NCBI RefSeq assembly: GCF_017313335.1
Contig: NZ_JAFLQW010000667.1
Location: forward strand, 1-38,662
DNA from: Phormidium pseudopriestleyi FRX01
Lineage (GTDB): Bacteria > Cyanobacteriota > Cyanobacteriia > Cyanobacteriales > Laspinemataceae
Length of the DNA stretch: 38,662 bases
Direction: 5' to 3'
Position numbers and translations under genes: made by a program. The notes under the pieces are model-generated. The model did not search any database. It had not been told where the DNA came from and saw only the letters and a program-made list of their open reading frames with translations. Shown one piece after another: positions 14,410 to 23,405 of this stretch (positions are counted from its first letter, which is position 1; each line of letters starts with the position of its first letter).

Positions 14410-15810
14410 TTACAATCCTAGAAACAGCTTGGCCAGATTAAAGTAAATTAGAACACCTAATACATCCACCGCAGTGGTAATAAACGGCGCTGACATCAGG
14501 GCGGGATCTAACTTGATGGCGCGGAATAAAAACGGTAGGGACGAACCCGCCACCGATGCCAAAATTGAAATTGCAATCAGAGAAACGCCCACACAGAAAG
14601 CCACCTGAATATTCACCTGCAAGAGGAAATAGGCCCAGATGGTGGCGAGGGTTCCCAAAATTGTCCCCAGTAATGCTCCAGCAATCCCCTCACGGAAGAT
14701 GACTTTCATCGGTCCGAGTAAGCGCAGTTCATCGGTATTCATCCCGCGAATCACCACGGTGGAAGACTGGGCACCGACATTCCCTCCAGTTCCCGTGAGT
14801 AGGGGGATAAAGGCGGTGAGGACGACGACTTGCTGCAATAGGTCTTTTTGGGAGTTAATAATGGATCCGGTGACGGTATTGGTGAGCAATAAGACGAACA
14901 GCCACACGACACGCCGTCGCGCCACCGTCCATAAACTCATTTCAAAATAATTATCCCCATCGGACTGGACCCCACCCAAGGCATAAATATCCTCGGTGGT
15001 TTCCTGTTCCATAATGTCGATCGCATCATCAATGGTGATGACCCCGACTAAGCGTTGCTCGCGATCGACCACGGGGATCGCCAGGAAATCATAGCGCTGA
15101 ATCAGGCGAGAGACTTCCTCTCCGTCGGTATCCGTATGGACGAACACCACGTCTTGAGTCATGATTTCACTAATTTTTTCCTCGGGGGAACTAATCACCA
15201 AGTCCCGCAGGGAAACGATTCCGGTTAACCGGCGATCGCTATCCATGACGTAGAGGTAATAAATAATTTCCGCGACAGGCGACAGGGTGCGAATTCGTTC
15301 TAGGGTTTGACTGACGCTCATGTTTTCCCGGACGGAAATATATTCCGGGGTCATGACTCTCCCAGCAGTTCCCGATTCGTAGCCCATCAGCAGGGCGGTG
15401 GACTGCCATTCCGTGGGAGACAGTTGCGCCCGCAATCGGCGCACGACTTTCGAGGGCAACTCATCCAGCAGTCGGGCGCGATCGTCCGGGGACATATTGC
15501 CGATGATATCGAGGACATCCTGGCGCTTGAAGTCTTCTAAAAGCACCTGTTGGACGCTGGTATCGAGATGTTCGTAAACTTCCGTTGCTTCCTGTTTGGA
15601 TAGCAAGCGAAAGGCGATCGCCTGCATCGCTTCGGGCATTCCTTCGATCGCTTCGGCGATATCCACAGGTTGAACCGGGACTAAAATCGCTTTAGCCCCC
15701 TGGAGGTCCCCTTGTTTGAGGAGGGCTTCCAGTTGCGATCGCACTAAGTCAGGTATTTCTCTCCGCGACAGGGTCCCGAGGGGAGAGGATATCGGTTGAG
15801 GTTCAGTCAC
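14410..15810 (-). CDS. mgtE: MgtE-type Mg2+ transporter, copy 2
   Basis: A 466-residue MgtE with the full domain order: N-terminal helical superhelix (to about residue 150), paired CBS domains (about 155-275), a plug helix and five membrane helices. The pore signature GTGGNVGAQSST and the DPALMSAPFITT segment with the conserved pore Asp are intact. MgtE is a Mg2+-gated channel that closes when the cytosolic domain binds Mg2+. The start is GTG with GGGAG six bases upstream. It lies downstream of a paralogue in the same direction, 115 bases apart, probably co-transcribed. Confidence 0.95.
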   Translation of the reverse strand: MTEPQPISSPLGTLSRREIPDLVRSQLEALLKQGDLQGAKAILVPVQPVDIAEAIEGMPEAMQAIAFRLLSKQEATEVYEHLDTSVQQVLLEDFKRQDVLDIIGNMSPDDRARLLDELPSKVVRRLRAQLSPTEWQSTALLMGYESGTAGRVMTPEYISVRENMSVSQTLERIRTLSPVAEIIYYLYVMDSDRRLTGIVSLRDLVISSPEEKISEIMTQDVVFVHTDTDGEEVSRLIQRYDFLAIPVVDREQRLVGVITIDDAIDIMEQETTEDIYALGGVQSDGDNYFEMSLWTVARRRVVWLFVLLLTNTVTGSIINSQKDLLQQVVVLTAFIPLLTGTGGNVGAQSSTVVIRGMNTDELRLLGPMKVIFREGIAGALLGTILGTLATIWAYFLLQVNIQVAFCVGVSLIAISILASVAGSSLPFLFRAIKLDPALMSAPFITTAVDVLGVLIYFNLAKLFLGL

Positions 15811-15925: not shown

Positions 15926-17341
15926 TCACTGCGTACCTCCCAAAAGCTGCTGTGCCACCGTTAAATAAATTAGCACCCCCAGGACATCCACAGCGGTGGT
16001 AATAAAGGGCGCTGACATCAATGCTGGATCAAAACCCATTCGATAAAATAAAAACGGCAGGGCGGATCCAGCGAAGGATGCCAGGATGGTAATCGCCAGC
16101 AAACTCACGCCCACGGAAATGGCAACGAGCAGATTTCCTGCTAAGAAATAGGCCCAAACGGTGACGACAATGGACAGCATGATCCCTAACAGCCCCCCGG
16201 CGATCGTCTCCCGTCCAATAATTCTCCAGGCTTTTCCTTCCCGAATTGCATTGATATTTAACCCGCGAATCACCACGGTGGAGGACTGTGCACCGACGTT
16301 CCCCCCCGTATCAATGAGTAAGGGAATAAACGCTGCCAGTGCGACCACTTGTTGGAGAATATCTTCTCGGGCCCGAATCACTGCCGAGGTTGCTGTATTT
16401 GTAATTAATAAAATAAACAACCAAACTACACGCTTTCGCACCACGGTGAATAGGTTGGTTTGAAAATAGTTTTCTCCCCCACTTTCCACCCCACCGAGGG
16501 CATAAATATCTTCCGTGGTTTCGGCTTCCACCACATCCATGACATCATCCACGGTGATAATGCCCACGAGACGTTGTTCGCTATCGACCACAGGCAAGGC
16601 TAGAAAATCATAGCGTTGAATTAATCGCGCTGCTTCCTCGCGATCGGTTTCCGTGGAAACAAACACGGGTTCTCGCCGAGTAATTTCTGATAACAGTTGT
16701 TGCGGTTCCGAGACGACTAAATCCCGCAGAGAAATCGTGCCAATTAAGTGCCGAGAGGCATCGGTTACATACAGATAATAAATGATTTCACTGACATTGG
16801 CTAAATTTCTAATCCGGTCTAGGGCATTTCCTATGGTCATGTTTTCTTTGACCGCGATATACTCCGGGGTCATCATTCTCCCGGCGCTGTCTGGGGGATA
16901 ACCTAAGAGCAAGGAGGTGGTTTGACGTTCGTCGGGACTCAGTTGTTCTAGGATACGCTTGACCACTTTGGCTGGCAATTCATCAAACAACCGGGCGCGG
17001 TCATCCGGGGACATTTTATCAACAATGTCCAGCACGTCCTGGCGTTTAAATTCTTCGATTAAGGCATATTGAATACTGGAGTCCAGATATTCATAAACCT
17101 CGATTGCCTCTTCTTTGGATAATAACCGAAAGGCGATCGCTTGCATGGTTTGCGGTAATCCTTCAATCGCCTCAGCGATATCAGCCGGTTGGACTGGAAC
17201 CAGTAATGCTTTTGCTCCGGGTAGGTTATTTTGTTCGAGTAATGCCTGCAATTGCGATCGCACGAGTTGGCGTAATGCGTCTCGGGTCGTCGGCTGAACG
17301 GACGGGACTTCCGTAATATTATCGTTATTATTATCGTTCAT
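15926..17341 (-). CDS. mgtE: MgtE-type Mg2+ transporter, copy 1
   Basis: A 471-residue paralogue of the next gene, with the same N, CBS-CBS and five-helix pore domains. The pore motif reads LLIDTGGNVGAQ, so an Ile-Asp replaces the Thr-Gly before TGGN in its neighbour. Such a difference near the selectivity region could alter ion handling. The N-terminus starts with a low-complexity Asn/Asp run (MNDNNNDN). It has an unusually long upstream region with a promoter, small ORFs and hairpins, suggesting post-initiation control. The two copies may be an ancient tandem duplication with divided roles. Confidence 0.95.
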   Translation of the reverse strand: MNDNNNDNITEVPSVQPTTRDALRQLVRSQLQALLEQNNLPGAKALLVPVQPADIAEAIEGLPQTMQAIAFRLLSKEEAIEVYEYLDSSIQYALIEEFKRQDVLDIVDKMSPDDRARLFDELPAKVVKRILEQLSPDERQTTSLLLGYPPDSAGRMMTPEYIAVKENMTIGNALDRIRNLANVSEIIYYLYVTDASRHLIGTISLRDLVVSEPQQLLSEITRREPVFVSTETDREEAARLIQRYDFLALPVVDSEQRLVGIITVDDVMDVVEAETTEDIYALGGVESGGENYFQTNLFTVVRKRVVWLFILLITNTATSAVIRAREDILQQVVALAAFIPLLIDTGGNVGAQSSTVVIRGLNINAIREGKAWRIIGRETIAGGLLGIMLSIVVTVWAYFLAGNLLVAISVGVSLLAITILASFAGSALPFLFYRMGFDPALMSAPFITTAVDVLGVLIYLTVAQQLLGGTQ

Positions 17342-18138: not shown

Positions 18139-19785
18139 CTAGTTCTGAGCAGTTTCCACGGCGATATCCCCGGTTTGGACGACTAAAACAGGAACGCGAC
18201 TCCCCGCTAAAACCCCTTGAGAAACCGACCCCACTGCCGCCCCTTGTCGGTCTGGATTAGGGCGTTTCCCGACCACAATCGCCGTGACCGGATGGGCTTG
18301 CGACCAGGCCAAAATTGTATCCACAACTGGACCTTTTTCAGTCATAAACCGATGGCGAATATCCGCTAAAATTCCCTGGGTTATCTTCTGAATTGCTTGA
18401 ATTTCCTCCGGATTGTCTTCTGTGACTACATACAAAACAATCGCCTCTCCATGACTACGCCGAGCTAAATCTGCCGTTTGTTTCAAAACTTCCATTGCCC
18501 CCGGCGAACGATCCACTGCTGCCAAAAACAGAGTCCGAGCATTCACCGTCACTTTTGTTGGGTCTACTTCTCCTTTTTTTAGCAATTTTGGAGCAAAAGT
18601 TGGAATTGCCCAAGCCCCCAAAGGAGCAGTCACTAAAATTGCCAAGGCAGCAATGGCTAAAATAATTTCACCCCCTTCAATTCCATAAGCTAAAGGTAAC
18701 GCACCCAAGGCCGCCTGCACTGTTGCTTTTGCAGAATTTCCAGGTAACAAAAACAGTTTTTCTTGCCAATTCCAATTACTCCCTGCCGTAGAAAGTGTCC
18801 AACCCAGGGTTCGCCCGATTAATAAACCCACGGCTAAAATAGCAAGGCCGGGTAAGAACATCTCGCCCAAAACTTGGAGATGAATACTGGCTCCCATTAA
18901 CACAAATAAGACAATTTCCGCCACAATCCATAGGGTATTAAATCCATTGCGGAGTTGACGGGCCAGGGGTGCATCCAGTTCGATTAAAAAGAATCCCATT
19001 GACATGACCGCTAGATACCCCGAAAAATAAGGGAATTGGCGGGCGGCAATCACGGCAAATGCCGCCACAACTGCGGCGATTAAGACATCTTGAACCTGAT
19101 TTTTACTCCAGCTTTGGTGTTCGAGGAGAGAGACTAATAATTGGGCGGCTAAATAACCGGCAATGGTTCCTAAAATCACCTGCATAACTGCTTGGAGGGG
19201 AAGTAATAAGAGCGGATTTAATGAGAGTCTCCCGGGCAAAATGACTCGCTCCATTTCCCCTTGTTGGAGGAAATTTAACAGTAAACTGAAAACAAGTAAT
19301 AGCACAACATCAGAAAGGGCCGACCCGGTTAAAATGGCATCGGGAATACCTTTTTCGACGCCCCAACCCAAGCGTTTGAGACGCAACATTCCCGGGACAA
19401 TGACGGCGGGAGATTCGGCGGCAATAATGCAACCGAGGAGCAATCCAGTTAATAGGTCAAACTGGAAGAGAAACATCGCCGCAATGGCGATCGCAATTGC
19501 TTCTAAGATAGCGGGTAAAATGCCTAATCGTAGAGCTACGGTTCCCTGTTCCGCCAACTTTTCGCGATCGAGTCCGAGTCCCGCTTTCATCAGGATAATC
19601 ATCACCGCCACGGTTCTCAAATCATCCGCAGCCGCAAGAATTCCCGGTTCTAGGCGATTTCCCACCTCGGGACCGAGGATGATCCCCACCAAAATCATGC
19701 CAATGAGCGGGGGTGCACCGAGGCGACGGGCGAACTGACCCGCAAAAAAGCCCATCCCTAAGATCCAAATTGTACTGATTAACAT
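18139..19785 (-). CDS. Cation:proton antiporter with C-terminal universal-stress domain, fluoride-riboswitch controlled
   Basis: 548 residues: about twelve membrane helices of the CPA (NhaP/Kef-like) superfamily in residues 1-400, including LMKAGLGLD, AAESPAVIVPG and GNSAKATVQAALG, then a cytosolic UspA-type domain (about 415-545) ending GSVSQGVLAGSRVPVLVV, the usual nucleotide-binding pattern. The gene follows a fluoride aptamer. Antiporter genes are among those known to lie behind fluoride riboswitches, so the likely role is fluoride expulsion or the linked ion balance, rather than plain sodium export. AGGAG lies eight bases before the ATG and is part of a hairpin. Substrate is inference from the riboswitch. 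Confidence 0.93.
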   Translation of the reverse strand: MLISTIWILGMGFFAGQFARRLGAPPLIGMILVGIILGPEVGNRLEPGILAAADDLRTVAVMIILMKAGLGLDREKLAEQGTVALRLGILPAILEAIAIAIAAMFLFQFDLLTGLLLGCIIAAESPAVIVPGMLRLKRLGWGVEKGIPDAILTGSALSDVVLLLVFSLLLNFLQQGEMERVILPGRLSLNPLLLLPLQAVMQVILGTIAGYLAAQLLVSLLEHQSWSKNQVQDVLIAAVVAAFAVIAARQFPYFSGYLAVMSMGFFLIELDAPLARQLRNGFNTLWIVAEIVLFVLMGASIHLQVLGEMFLPGLAILAVGLLIGRTLGWTLSTAGSNWNWQEKLFLLPGNSAKATVQAALGALPLAYGIEGGEIILAIAALAILVTAPLGAWAIPTFAPKLLKKGEVDPTKVTVNARTLFLAAVDRSPGAMEVLKQTADLARRSHGEAIVLYVVTEDNPEEIQAIQKITQGILADIRHRFMTEKGPVVDTILAWSQAHPVTAIVVGKRPNPDRQGAAVGSVSQGVLAGSRVPVLVVQTGDIAVETAQN

Positions 19786-19793
19786 TGCTCATG

Positions 19794-19827
19794 CTCCTGA
19801 ACAGTTGTGCAGTGGCTGCTCCAGGAG
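19794..19827 (-). promoter_or_regulatory. Hairpin masking the antiporter ribosome-binding site
   Basis: CTCCTG pairs with CAGGAG, which contains the Shine-Dalgarno sequence AGGAG of the antiporter gene. It lies between the fluoride aptamer and the start codon, so translation is probably what the switch controls. Confidence 0.5.
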
Positions 19828-19845
19828 TGGATTGATGCGATCGCC

Positions 19846-19945
19846 CTACCTCCCGGCATTCAGCCAAGAAAGGTAGGAGCCATCAGCCGTTCAGCCCCCC
19901 ATCGGGATCGCTGAATTGGCGGTTATGGCGAGCTCCATCGCCTTC
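19846..19945 (-). promoter_or_regulatory. Fluoride riboswitch (crcB motif)
   Basis: On the minus strand from 19942: GGCGATGGAGCTCGCC, then ATAACCGCC, a variable hairpin (AATTCAGC...GCTGAA), then GGCTGATGGCTCCTACC ending at 19872. This matches the crcB/fluoride aptamer: a GGCGATGG...CGCC stem, the AACCGC segment and the nearly invariant CTGATGGCTCCTAC. Its 3' end (CCTACCT) can instead pair with AGGTAGG just downstream, giving an alternative stem that would serve as part of the expression platform. Fluoride binding stabilises the aptamer and turns the downstream gene on in known members. Confidence 0.93.
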
Positions 19946-20134
19946 AATCTTAAATCAGGACTTAATATAGCATGAATTTCCGCAACAATCCATCGATTGA
20001 CCCTTTTTTTGCTCGGACCGAATGACTCAAAAATCATCCCCCTGCTGGCAGAATCTCTTTCTGGAGGTAGAATCCACCGGAGGATTAAGTTTTGTAAAAT
20101 TCACAGCAAGCGGGAATTTAATAGGAGTTTTTTC

Positions 20135-21832
20135 ATGTCTCAGTACGATGTAATTATAATTGGAGCCGGTCATAACGGCTTAGTCTGTGCGGCTTACATT
20201 TTAAAAGCGGGTAAAAGTGTTTTAGTTTTAGAAAAACGCTCAGTTCCCGGGGGTGCAGCAACGACAGAAGAATCCTTGCCTGAAGAAGCACCGGGTTTTA
20301 AATTTAACCTCTGTGCGATCGACCATGAATTTATCCATCTCGGGCCAGTGGTGGAAGAATTAGAACTGAAAAAATATGGATTGGACTATCTGTATTGCGA
20401 CCCGGTACTGTTTTGTCCACAACCCGATGGAAAATATTTTCTCGGCCATAAATCCGTAGACCAAACCTGTCGTGAAATTGCCCGCTACAGTGAGCGCGAC
20501 GCCCAGAAATATGGTGAATTTGTCCAATATTGGCAGCGAGTTTTGAATGCGATCGCCCCGATATTCAACGCGCCGCCTAAATCGATTATCGATATCACTG
20601 GCAATTATAATTTCGATAAAATTAAAGACCTACTGTCTTTACTCGGAACCCCGGATAAAATCCTTGATTTTGCCCGAACCATGCTCAGTAGTCCTCAAGA
20701 TATGTTAGAGGAATGGTTTGATACCGAAGTTGTCAAAGCACCTTTAGCTAGACTCGCCGCAGAAATGAGCGTACCTCCCTCACAAAAAGGGATGTCTGTC
20801 GGTGCAATTATGATGGCAATGCGGCATAATCCCGGGATGGCGAGACCCCGAGGAGGAACCGGCGCACTCACCCAAGCATTAGTGAATCGAGTCACCAGTC
20901 TTGGGGGTGAAATTTTGTGCGATCGCGGCGTCGAAAAAATTTTAATCGATAATGGTCGTGCCGTCGGTGTCCGCGTTGACGGAGGACAAGAATACCGCGC
21001 CAAAGAAGGAGTTATTTCCAATATTGATGTCAAACGAGTCTTCTTAAATCTTGTTGATCCAGGGGATATTGATTCCCGCGATCCCAACTTACGCGAGCGG
21101 GTAGAACGCCGCATTGTGAACAACAATGAAAGTATTCTCAAACTGGATTGTGCCCTCTCGGAAATACCCAGATTTGAAGCCTACAATCATCAAGATGAGT
21201 ATTTAATTGGGTCCGTCGTTATTGCCGATTCCGTGCATCATGTAGAAACAGCTCATAGTCTCTGTCAACTTGGCATTGTTCCGGATGAAAATCCCTCCAT
21301 GTATGCCGTAGTTCCCACGGTTCTCGACCCATCAATGGCCCCGGAAGGAAAGCATACCCTCTGGGTGGAATTCTTCGCTCCCTATCAGATTTACGGCGCA
21401 GAAGGAACCGGACAAAAGGGCACTGGGTGGACCGACGAACTCAAAAACAAAGTGGCCGATCGCCTGATTGATAAACTCTCCGATTATGCACCTAATCTCA
21501 AAAATTCAATTATTGCGCGACGGGTAGAAAGTCCAGCGGAACTCAGCGATCGCCTTGGGTCTTATAAGGGAAATCACTACCATATTGACATGACCTTAGA
21601 CCAGATGATTTTCTTCCGCCCCCTCCCGGAAATTGCTAATTACAAAACGCCCATTGACGGGCTGTTTTTAACCGGCGCTGGAACTCATCCCGGCGGTTCG
21701 ATTTCGGGAATGCCCGGACGGAACTGTGCCCGGGTATTTTTATTCCAACAGCAACCCATGAGCCAAACTTTAAAAGATGTGACAAATTCAGTCAAATCAA
21801 TAGCAAATTCAGTGTTTAATTTGTCAAGTTGA
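20135..21832 (+). CDS. crtO: CrtO-type beta-carotene ketolase
   Basis: 565 residues of the CrtO family (Synechocystis slr0088-like), related to phytoene desaturase. The N-terminal FAD-binding motif is IIIGAGHNGLVCAAYILKAG, followed by EKRSVPGGAATTEE. Further hallmarks are NLCAIDHEFIHLGP, MARPRGGTGAL, and the C-terminal FLTGAGTHPGGSISGMPGRN. The enzyme introduces a keto group into beta-carotene giving echinenone, a pigment also used by orange carotenoid protein. The true start is the ATG at 20135 with AGGAG seven bases upstream; the upstream in-frame ATG at 19997 lies near the riboswitch and adds 46 implausible residues. It is transcribed divergently from the fluoride-regulated antiporter. Confidence 0.94.
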   Translation: MSQYDVIIIGAGHNGLVCAAYILKAGKSVLVLEKRSVPGGAATTEESLPEEAPGFKFNLCAIDHEFIHLGPVVEELELKKYGLDYLYCDPVLFCPQPDGKYFLGHKSVDQTCREIARYSERDAQKYGEFVQYWQRVLNAIAPIFNAPPKSIIDITGNYNFDKIKDLLSLLGTPDKILDFARTMLSSPQDMLEEWFDTEVVKAPLARLAAEMSVPPSQKGMSVGAIMMAMRHNPGMARPRGGTGALTQALVNRVTSLGGEILCDRGVEKILIDNGRAVGVRVDGGQEYRAKEGVISNIDVKRVFLNLVDPGDIDSRDPNLRERVERRIVNNNESILKLDCALSEIPRFEAYNHQDEYLIGSVVIADSVHHVETAHSLCQLGIVPDENPSMYAVVPTVLDPSMAPEGKHTLWVEFFAPYQIYGAEGTGQKGTGWTDELKNKVADRLIDKLSDYAPNLKNSIIARRVESPAELSDRLGSYKGNHYHIDMTLDQMIFFRPLPEIANYKTPIDGLFLTGAGTHPGGSISGMPGRNCARVFLFQQQPMSQTLKDVTNSVKSIANSVFNLSS

Positions 21833-21961: not shown

Positions 21962-22151
21962 TTATGGCATTTCATATCATAAAAAATCATAATCAACCGT
22001 AAGGTTAAGTTCCTTTTTGTAGCACCCGATTTAGCTTTCAAATCAAGAGCATAGCTTTCTGCATTATGGAGATGATTGTTTGTTTCAACCGTTGGCCAAT
22101 TACCCGAATTAGTTGTTTCTGTCATCAATTAATAAAAGAGGAGCGATCGCT

Positions 22152-23405
22152 TTGGTAGATATTTACATTCTCGATCTGCTGGCTATTGGCTTATTGCTGC
22201 TCTCGGTAACGGTGTTTTCGGGGTGGATTAAGCGGTTGCCGCTTTCGTATGCCTTGATTTATTTAGCCGTTGGTATTTTTATCGGTCCTTATGGGATAAG
22301 ATTAATTCTGGTGCGCCCCGAGGCGAACTTTTTGGAGCGATTAACTGAATTAGTCGTGATTATTTCGTTGTTTAGTGGCGGACTAAAAATGAATCGTCCG
22401 CTCAAGTTTTGGGCGTGGCAGACGACGGCCCGATTAATTGGATTTTTGATGCCAATTTCTATTGTAGCCCTGGCGGTTGTTGGGCGCTTATTTTTGGGCT
22501 TGGATTGGGGGGCGGCGATTTTACTCGGGGCGATTCTTGCGCCCACAGATCCGGTTTTGGCCTCAGAAGTTCAACTGGCTCATGTTGAGGATAAAGATGA
22601 ACTCCGCTTTGGCTTAACTTCCGAAGGGGGTTTAAATGATGCCTTGGCTTTTCCGTTTGTTTATTTTGGGTTATATGCGTTAAAAGATAGCAATTTCAAT
22701 AACTGGATTTATGAGTGGTTGGTGATTGATTTAATTTGGGCGATCGCCGCTGGTATTGGCATGGGGATTCTCGTCGCCTCGGCCATTATTTGGGTTAAAA
22801 AACAATTGCATCGCGTTCGTCCCGTGGATGAACTCATGCAAGATTTTATTGCATTGAGTACAATTTTAATGGCCTATTCCCTGACTGAAGTGATTAATGG
22901 ATATGGGTTTGTCGCAGTATTTGTCGCTGGCATGACGGTCCGCAGAAGCTACAGCAGTGATGCAGAACGAACCCATTCTCAACTAAGATTAACGGAACGG
23001 GTGGAAAAACTCCTAGAAGTAGGAACTATCTTGTTAATCGGTTCTCTGCTGAGAATAGAACCGAGTTTACGGTTTGCCGGAGATACTTTGATTGTGGCGG
23101 GATTTTTGTTGTTTATTATTCGTCCTCTGGGAACTTGGATTAGTACCATTGGCTCAAACCTTCATGCCTCAAAACGGTTATTAATGGGGTGGTTTGGAAT
23201 TCGGGGCGTGGGTTCGGTCTATTATCTCACTTATGCGATGGGCAAAGGATTAGAAGGAGAAACAGGGGAAAAACTTGCTTGGATTGTGTTTCTGACCCTG
23301 GTGATTTCGGTGATTCTGCATGGAATTAGTGCGACTCCGTTGATGAATTGGTATGAGTCGAATTTGGAGAAAAGAAGGGGAACCCTAAAAGGCGATCGCC
23401 CCTGA
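22152..23405 (+). CDS. NhaP-type Na+/H+ (cation:proton) antiporter, CPA1
   Basis: About 417 residues, nearly all membrane helices. CPA1 motifs include LSGG-like FSGGLKMN, LGAILAPTDPVLASEV and SEGGLNDALAFPFV, the last with the ion-binding Asp. It exchanges Na+ or K+ for protons across the plasma membrane. A TTG at 22152 with AGAGGAG eight bases upstream is the best start; the ATG at 22113 has no such site. There is no fluoride aptamer here, unlike the other antiporter. Its stop overlaps the start of the hydrolase remnant, indicating a former operon. Confidence 0.93.
   Translation: MVDIYILDLLAIGLLLLSVTVFSGWIKRLPLSYALIYLAVGIFIGPYGIRLILVRPEANFLERLTELVVIISLFSGGLKMNRPLKFWAWQTTARLIGFLMPISIVALAVVGRLFLGLDWGAAILLGAILAPTDPVLASEVQLAHVEDKDELRFGLTSEGGLNDALAFPFVYFGLYALKDSNFNNWIYEWLVIDLIWAIAAGIGMGILVASAIIWVKKQLHRVRPVDELMQDFIALSTILMAYSLTEVINGYGFVAVFVAGMTVRRSYSSDAERTHSQLRLTERVEKLLEVGTILLIGSLLRIEPSLRFAGDTLIVAGFLLFIIRPLGTWISTIGSNLHASKRLLMGWFGIRGVGSVYYLTYAMGKGLEGETGEKLAWIVFLTLVISVILHGISATPLMNWYESNLEKRRGTLKGDRP

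Follow-up and report, generated by a model that had tools for sequence, protein, structure and literature searches.

In many cyanobacteria, an NHA2-like cation/proton antiporter (CPA) seems to be the only recognised defense against fluoride. In the window (the whole 38.7 kb stretch of DNA that was analyzed), the gene for such a protein lies behind a fluoride riboswitch, and the protein probably acts as the fluoride-resistance protein of its lineage, standing in for the exporters CrcB and CLC-F and working most likely as a cation/H+ exchanger. We put the probability of this reading at about 0.6. It makes a clean, testable case, in which either fluoride resistance by proton antiport alone or a further family of exporters is at stake.

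The riboswitch was first suspected from a nearly complete signature, and the strings quoted for it are all present in the window. The covariance model of the family (RF01734) agrees, with a full-length match (model positions 1-64; 51.6 bits, E 1.3e-11, cmscan of the whole window) above the gathering score of 34 bits. This is the only match to any Rfam family in the window and the only RF01734 match in the whole assembly (6.0 Mb, 92% complete). The aptamer (Table 1) lies 81 nt upstream of the antiporter gene, in the position of a 5′ leader, reaches 6 nt beyond the segment 18139-19945 delimited by the first-pass annotation, and is conserved across the Laspinema clade. The RNA upstream of the antiporter is thus confirmed as a genuine member of the fluoride riboswitch class, predicted from its sequence to bind Mg-fluoride; the class being already known, the RNA itself is mostly another member of it. 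A promoter scan of the minus strand found no consensus promoter site.

The regulated gene had been described as an antiporter-UspA fusion instead of crcB or a CLC-F gene, and the domain content bears this out. The protein carries a Na_H_Exchanger domain (Pfam PF00999, residues 14-390, E 7e-32) followed by a Usp domain (PF00582, residues 421-536, E 1e-13); matches are limited to these two, and no homology to CLC-F or CrcB was found. In the protein tree it groups with sequences from Laspinema and Oscillatoria. Some 0.8 kb downstream of the antiporter, and likewise on the minus strand, are two tandem mgtE magnesium-transporter genes (14410-15810 and 15926-17341), and the divergent neighbor at 20135-21832 (plus strand) is the beta-carotene ketolase gene crtO (NCBIfam equivalog, 1104 bits).

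Table 1. Features of the antiporter locus and of the second antiporter, in window coordinates.
Feature	Position	Strand	Basis
TATATT, possible -10 element (weak)	19964..19969	-	unchanged in five relatives from the Laspinema clade
Fluoride riboswitch aptamer (RF01734, crcB motif)	19867..19951	-	cmscan 51.6 bits
CCTACCT, aptamer 3′ strand and 5′ strand of competing stem	19871..19877	-	sequence
AGGTAGG, switching strand	19845..19851	-	pairs CCTACCT in unconstrained fold
CCACTCCTGGA, anti-Shine-Dalgarno segment (inferred)	19820..19830	-	predicted folds
AGGAG, Shine-Dalgarno	19794..19798	-	ATG (19785) follows after 8 nt
NHA2-like CPA antiporter with C-terminal Usp domain, 548 aa	18139..19785	-	PF00999 + PF00582
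Second antiporter (ND-type), without riboswitch, control gene	22113..23405	+	PF00999

Whether the genome also has crcB was among the checks proposed in the first-pass annotation. Neither crcB nor a CLC-F-like gene was found in the 92% complete assembly, its two CLC matches being of other types. Across the phylum, one clean orthologue of the antiporter occurs in 59 of 386 genomes; in 25 of these the switch lies immediately upstream, and in 34 it is lacking. The aptamer is found upstream of 50 of the 80 named orthologues, where it stops some 86-110 nt short of the start codon, and is missing from the other 30. The antiporter is therefore not the exceptional riboswitch target that it had been taken for: these 50 share the switch, and Na+/H+ antiporters are given as the next commonest class associated with fluoride riboswitches after the exporters in the summary of Baker 2012 contained in PMC11139923.

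On the protein tree, the presence of the switch requires 9 changes, at least 5 of them on well-supported branches. Switchless orthologues (L094, L100, L104, L105, L110, L116, L117, L118, L120, L122, L132, L134, L137, L142, L154, L157, L158) come mostly from Okeania, Moorena and Trichodesmium, which we take to be marine genera, and the fluoride content of seawater is constant. The idea that marine lineages have lost the switch was nevertheless set aside and is kept as a lead only, being suggested by the names, with an independent-pairs p of 0.5 and habitat labels that were not assigned blind. In Anabaena sp. UHCC 0204 (L090) the aptamer is gone and the part of the leader near the start codon is retained, while in Picosynechococcus sp. 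PCC 7117 (L141) a plasmid of 265 kb carries both switch and antiporter. A switch and antiporter of cyanobacterial type are also found in a genome labelled as a Methylobacter MAG (L153), which is probably a misbinned contig. In three non-photosynthetic members of the phylum (L048, L065, L066), the gene behind the fluoride riboswitch encodes another, shorter CPA antiporter with a T-D motif, NapA-like by match in L065, and no crcB or CLC-F matches were found in these genomes.

The relation between the antiporter and the known exporters was tested in 129 Cyanobacteriia genomes with picocyanobacteria excluded (59 with the antiporter, 70 without), in which crcB was sought by Pfam PF02537 and CLC-F with the L035 protein as query; kinship was settled for most of the remaining genomes, with G369-G371 left unassigned. 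Neither exporter is present in 33 of the 59 antiporter genomes vs 5 of the 70 others (Fisher p 1e-9) and, counted by genus, in 20/32 with the antiporter vs 1/32 without (p 3.6e-7); the Fisher tests treat genomes as independent though they are related, a concern that is lessened, though not removed, by counting genera and by a control gene. Nearly all of the 33 exporter-less antiporter genomes are at least 99% complete, and no CLC match approaching CLC-F was found in them. The idea that a strict search had missed a divergent CLC-F was rejected: the best matches of 36 genomes are 24-32% identical, and the divergent CLCs that were inspected differ in their selectivity motifs (e.g., GPGLS/GPEGP or GSGI/GRQGP) or lack GNNL and GREGT.

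The control gene is the second antiporter of the window, 2.3 kb away and from a different CPA branch, at which the cmscan of the window gave no Rfam match. It had been put forward as a natural control. It does lack the switch and is useful for comparison, but it is not a matched control because it belongs to a different family. Across these 129 genomes its presence is unrelated to exporter absence (odds ratio 0.94, p 1). The exporter-absence pattern could also be an accident of shared ancestry with no replacement behind it, as antiporter and exporter states are clustered by genus. This is improbable, given that the association holds when genera are counted, that the control antiporter shows none, and that in the eight genera with mixed antiporter states every antiporter-less genome has an exporter. 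We found no description of this exporter-replacement pattern in cyanobacteria in the open-licence literature.

The organization of the locus in relatives points in the same direction as the replacement pattern. The same riboswitch leader drives the antiporter followed by CLC-F in five loci (L035, L039, L052, L055, L057), the antiporter followed by crcB in two (L037, L062) and CLC-F alone in two others (L040, L044). In total, 12 of the 50 switch-bearing named orthologues have CLC-F or crcB on the same strand of the locus. These CLCs are called CLC-F from their riboswitch and from the motifs GNNL and GREGT, which we take to be the signature of fluoride-type CLCs. The antiporter also decays beside CLC-F: in L038 and L047 its ends are joined by internal deletions and in L041 it is truncated, CLC-F being retained in all three. 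Behind L061, the second riboswitch of genome G174, 23 residues from the start of the antiporter are left, followed by two crcB genes; G174 retains an intact copy of the antiporter elsewhere. Taken together, its control by the riboswitch, the operons it shares with exporters, its decay next to CLC-F and a distribution complementary to theirs suggest that the antiporter has a job overlapping that of the exporters, and it looks like a fluoride-resistance gene able to substitute for one. It may even be the main fluoride defense of the genomes that carry it, since both known exporters are often missing there.

Alternatively, the antiporter could be an accessory that balances pH or cations under fluoride stress, the export of fluoride being left to another, unrecognised protein. 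Such a role would fit its position next to CLC-F or crcB in some relatives and the published view, which assigns riboswitch-linked Na+/H+ antiporters to pH homeostasis (PMC11139923). It is doubtful in view of the 33 antiporter genomes, almost all of them near complete, with neither known exporter, and of the antiporter-less genomes, which almost always have one.

What the protein moves can be approached through its residues. The best match of the family profile among solved structures is the mammalian exchanger NHA2/SLC9B2 (7p1i; E 7e-42, hmmsearch, profile positions 24-406). In the profile alignment, the NHA2 residues E214, R431, K459 and D278, the last strictly conserved (PMC8850199), correspond to E95, R325, K353 and D159 of the antiporter. 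E95, the Glu of the NHA2-type Glu-Arg salt bridge, is kept in 81/81 orthologues, R325 and K353 in 80/81 each, and D159, the Asp of the cation site, in 79/81. The pair at the DD motif is S158-D159, the first Asp (D277 in NHA2) being Ser in 81/81 orthologues, so that the transport chemistry may differ; NHA2 W456 is replaced by N350. The ten CPA proteins of the window's genome have motif pairs that include QD, ND, DD, TD, TN and SD. An AlphaFold model of the antiporter was set aside (mean pLDDT 72 from 12 sequences, below 50 at residues 125-155).

It is possible that the antiporter carries fluoride itself, for example by F-/H+ or F-/cation exchange, in which case the antiporter-Usp protein would be an unrecognised fluoride-resistance transporter, replacing CrcB/CLC-F in many cyanobacteria and founding a further bacterial family of fluoride exporters. 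Control by the riboswitch, a distribution complementary to crcB and CLC-F, operons shared with exporters, decay where CLC-F is present and the invariant Ser at the first Asp would all suit this role. Yet retention of the cation-binding Asp, together with a Glu-Arg-Lys set of the NHA2 type that varies little or not at all, makes cation/H+ exchange likelier than a direct transport of fluoride. A Ser or Thr before the motif Asp was considered as a fluoride signature, Ser being fixed in the antiporter family and Thr occurring in the CPA proteins that follow a riboswitch in L048, L065 and L066. It was rejected because Thr is also found in antiporters without a switch, L164-L166, in the window's own genome, where the fluoride riboswitch occurs once. 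We thus regard fluoride transport by the antiporter as unlikely. As a cation/H+ exchanger, the protein would most likely exchange Na+ or K+ for H+ and may hold the cytoplasm at a lower pH than the alkaline surroundings, such that fluoride would leave as HF, an exit route that rests on weak-acid chemistry.

How would fluoride control the synthesis of the antiporter? The CCTACCT/AGGTAGG alternative stem proposed in the first-pass annotation is supported, in that both strands are present and pair in the unconstrained fold. Across 50 distinct platform segments, TCCTAC and GTAG are invariant; the TCCTAC part of the stem cannot covary because it also belongs to the aptamer. Elsewhere the stem does covary, with a score above all 500 shuffles, such scores being inflated by related sequences, and 89% of its cells are paired overall vs 47-65% when the partner is slid. 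Once the aptamer is forced, AGGTAGG is released in the predicted fold and its neighbors pair towards the anti-Shine-Dalgarno region. This segment, largely conserved in five close relatives, pairs with the Shine-Dalgarno sequence in the unconstrained fold and, when the aptamer is forced, with the switching strand that has been released; the GGGAGG region then shifts onto the CUCC segment that had covered the Shine-Dalgarno sequence.

The hairpin thought to hide AGGAG behaves as expected in these predictions. In the window leader, the unpaired probability of AGGAG rises from about 0.1 in the unconstrained (OFF) fold to 0.95 in the aptamer-forced (ON) fold, and, when less 3′ sequence is folded, from 0.40 to 0.71; the size of the opening thus varies with the 3′ end chosen. 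Over 63 leaders, which are partly related and not independent, the start region opens by a mean of 0.085 vs 0.018 in platform-shuffled leaders (Wilcoxon p 2.5e-5), and the predicted opening of the Shine-Dalgarno sequence is small in most of them. Transcription termination was rejected as the mechanism, as no terminator-like site was found in 19700-20200. The burial and release of AGGAG, the comparison with shuffled leaders and the lack of a terminator make a translational ON switch the best reading of the leader, but not a proven one, as the predicted opening is absent in some close relatives (e.g., L081 and L082).

According to this model, fluoride entering the cell would turn on translation of the NHA2-like antiporter through the riboswitch. 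Without fluoride, the CCUACC strand of the aptamer would pair with the downstream AGGUAGG, and the CUCC segment that follows would cover the Shine-Dalgarno sequence. With Mg-fluoride bound, the aptamer would retain CUCCUACC and free the purine-rich switching strand, which could then capture the CUCC segment and expose the Shine-Dalgarno sequence.

A further proposal, that nucleotide binding by the UspA domain gates transport, fares poorly. In 70/81 orthologues the Usp ATP motif G-x2-G-x9-G(S/T) is complete, whereas it has decayed in the window protein, where the second Gly is Pro509, and in its Laspinema relatives. ATP gating is therefore least likely in the window protein, and the case for nucleotide gating of the antiporter by Usp, judged from these motifs, is weak.

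Compared with known systems, the leader resembles other members of the RF01734 class in its full match to the model, its 5′ position and the sharing of the aptamer 3′ strand with a competing stem. Many described crcB RNAs overlap terminators (PMC2864571), whereas the platform in the window looks translational and no terminator was found in it. As in the riboswitch-linked Na+/H+ antiporters that PMC11139923 summarizes from Baker 2012, a CPA antiporter lies directly under the switch; relative to the class as outlined there, the window protein is fused to Usp, is NHA2-like, has S-D in place of D-D and belongs to a genome without recognised exporters. The protein shares with NHA2/SLC9B2 (7p1i, 7b4l) the profile match and the equivalents of its Glu, Arg, Lys and Asp residues, but differs in S158 for D277, in N350 for W456, in its additional C-terminal Usp domain and in being bacterial. 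Finally, a universal stress protein is also found under a fluoride riboswitch in Enterobacter cloacae FRM (PMC5533749), where uspA is a separate gene of the operon, beside crcB, eno and ppaC, whereas in the window the Usp domain is fused to the antiporter itself.
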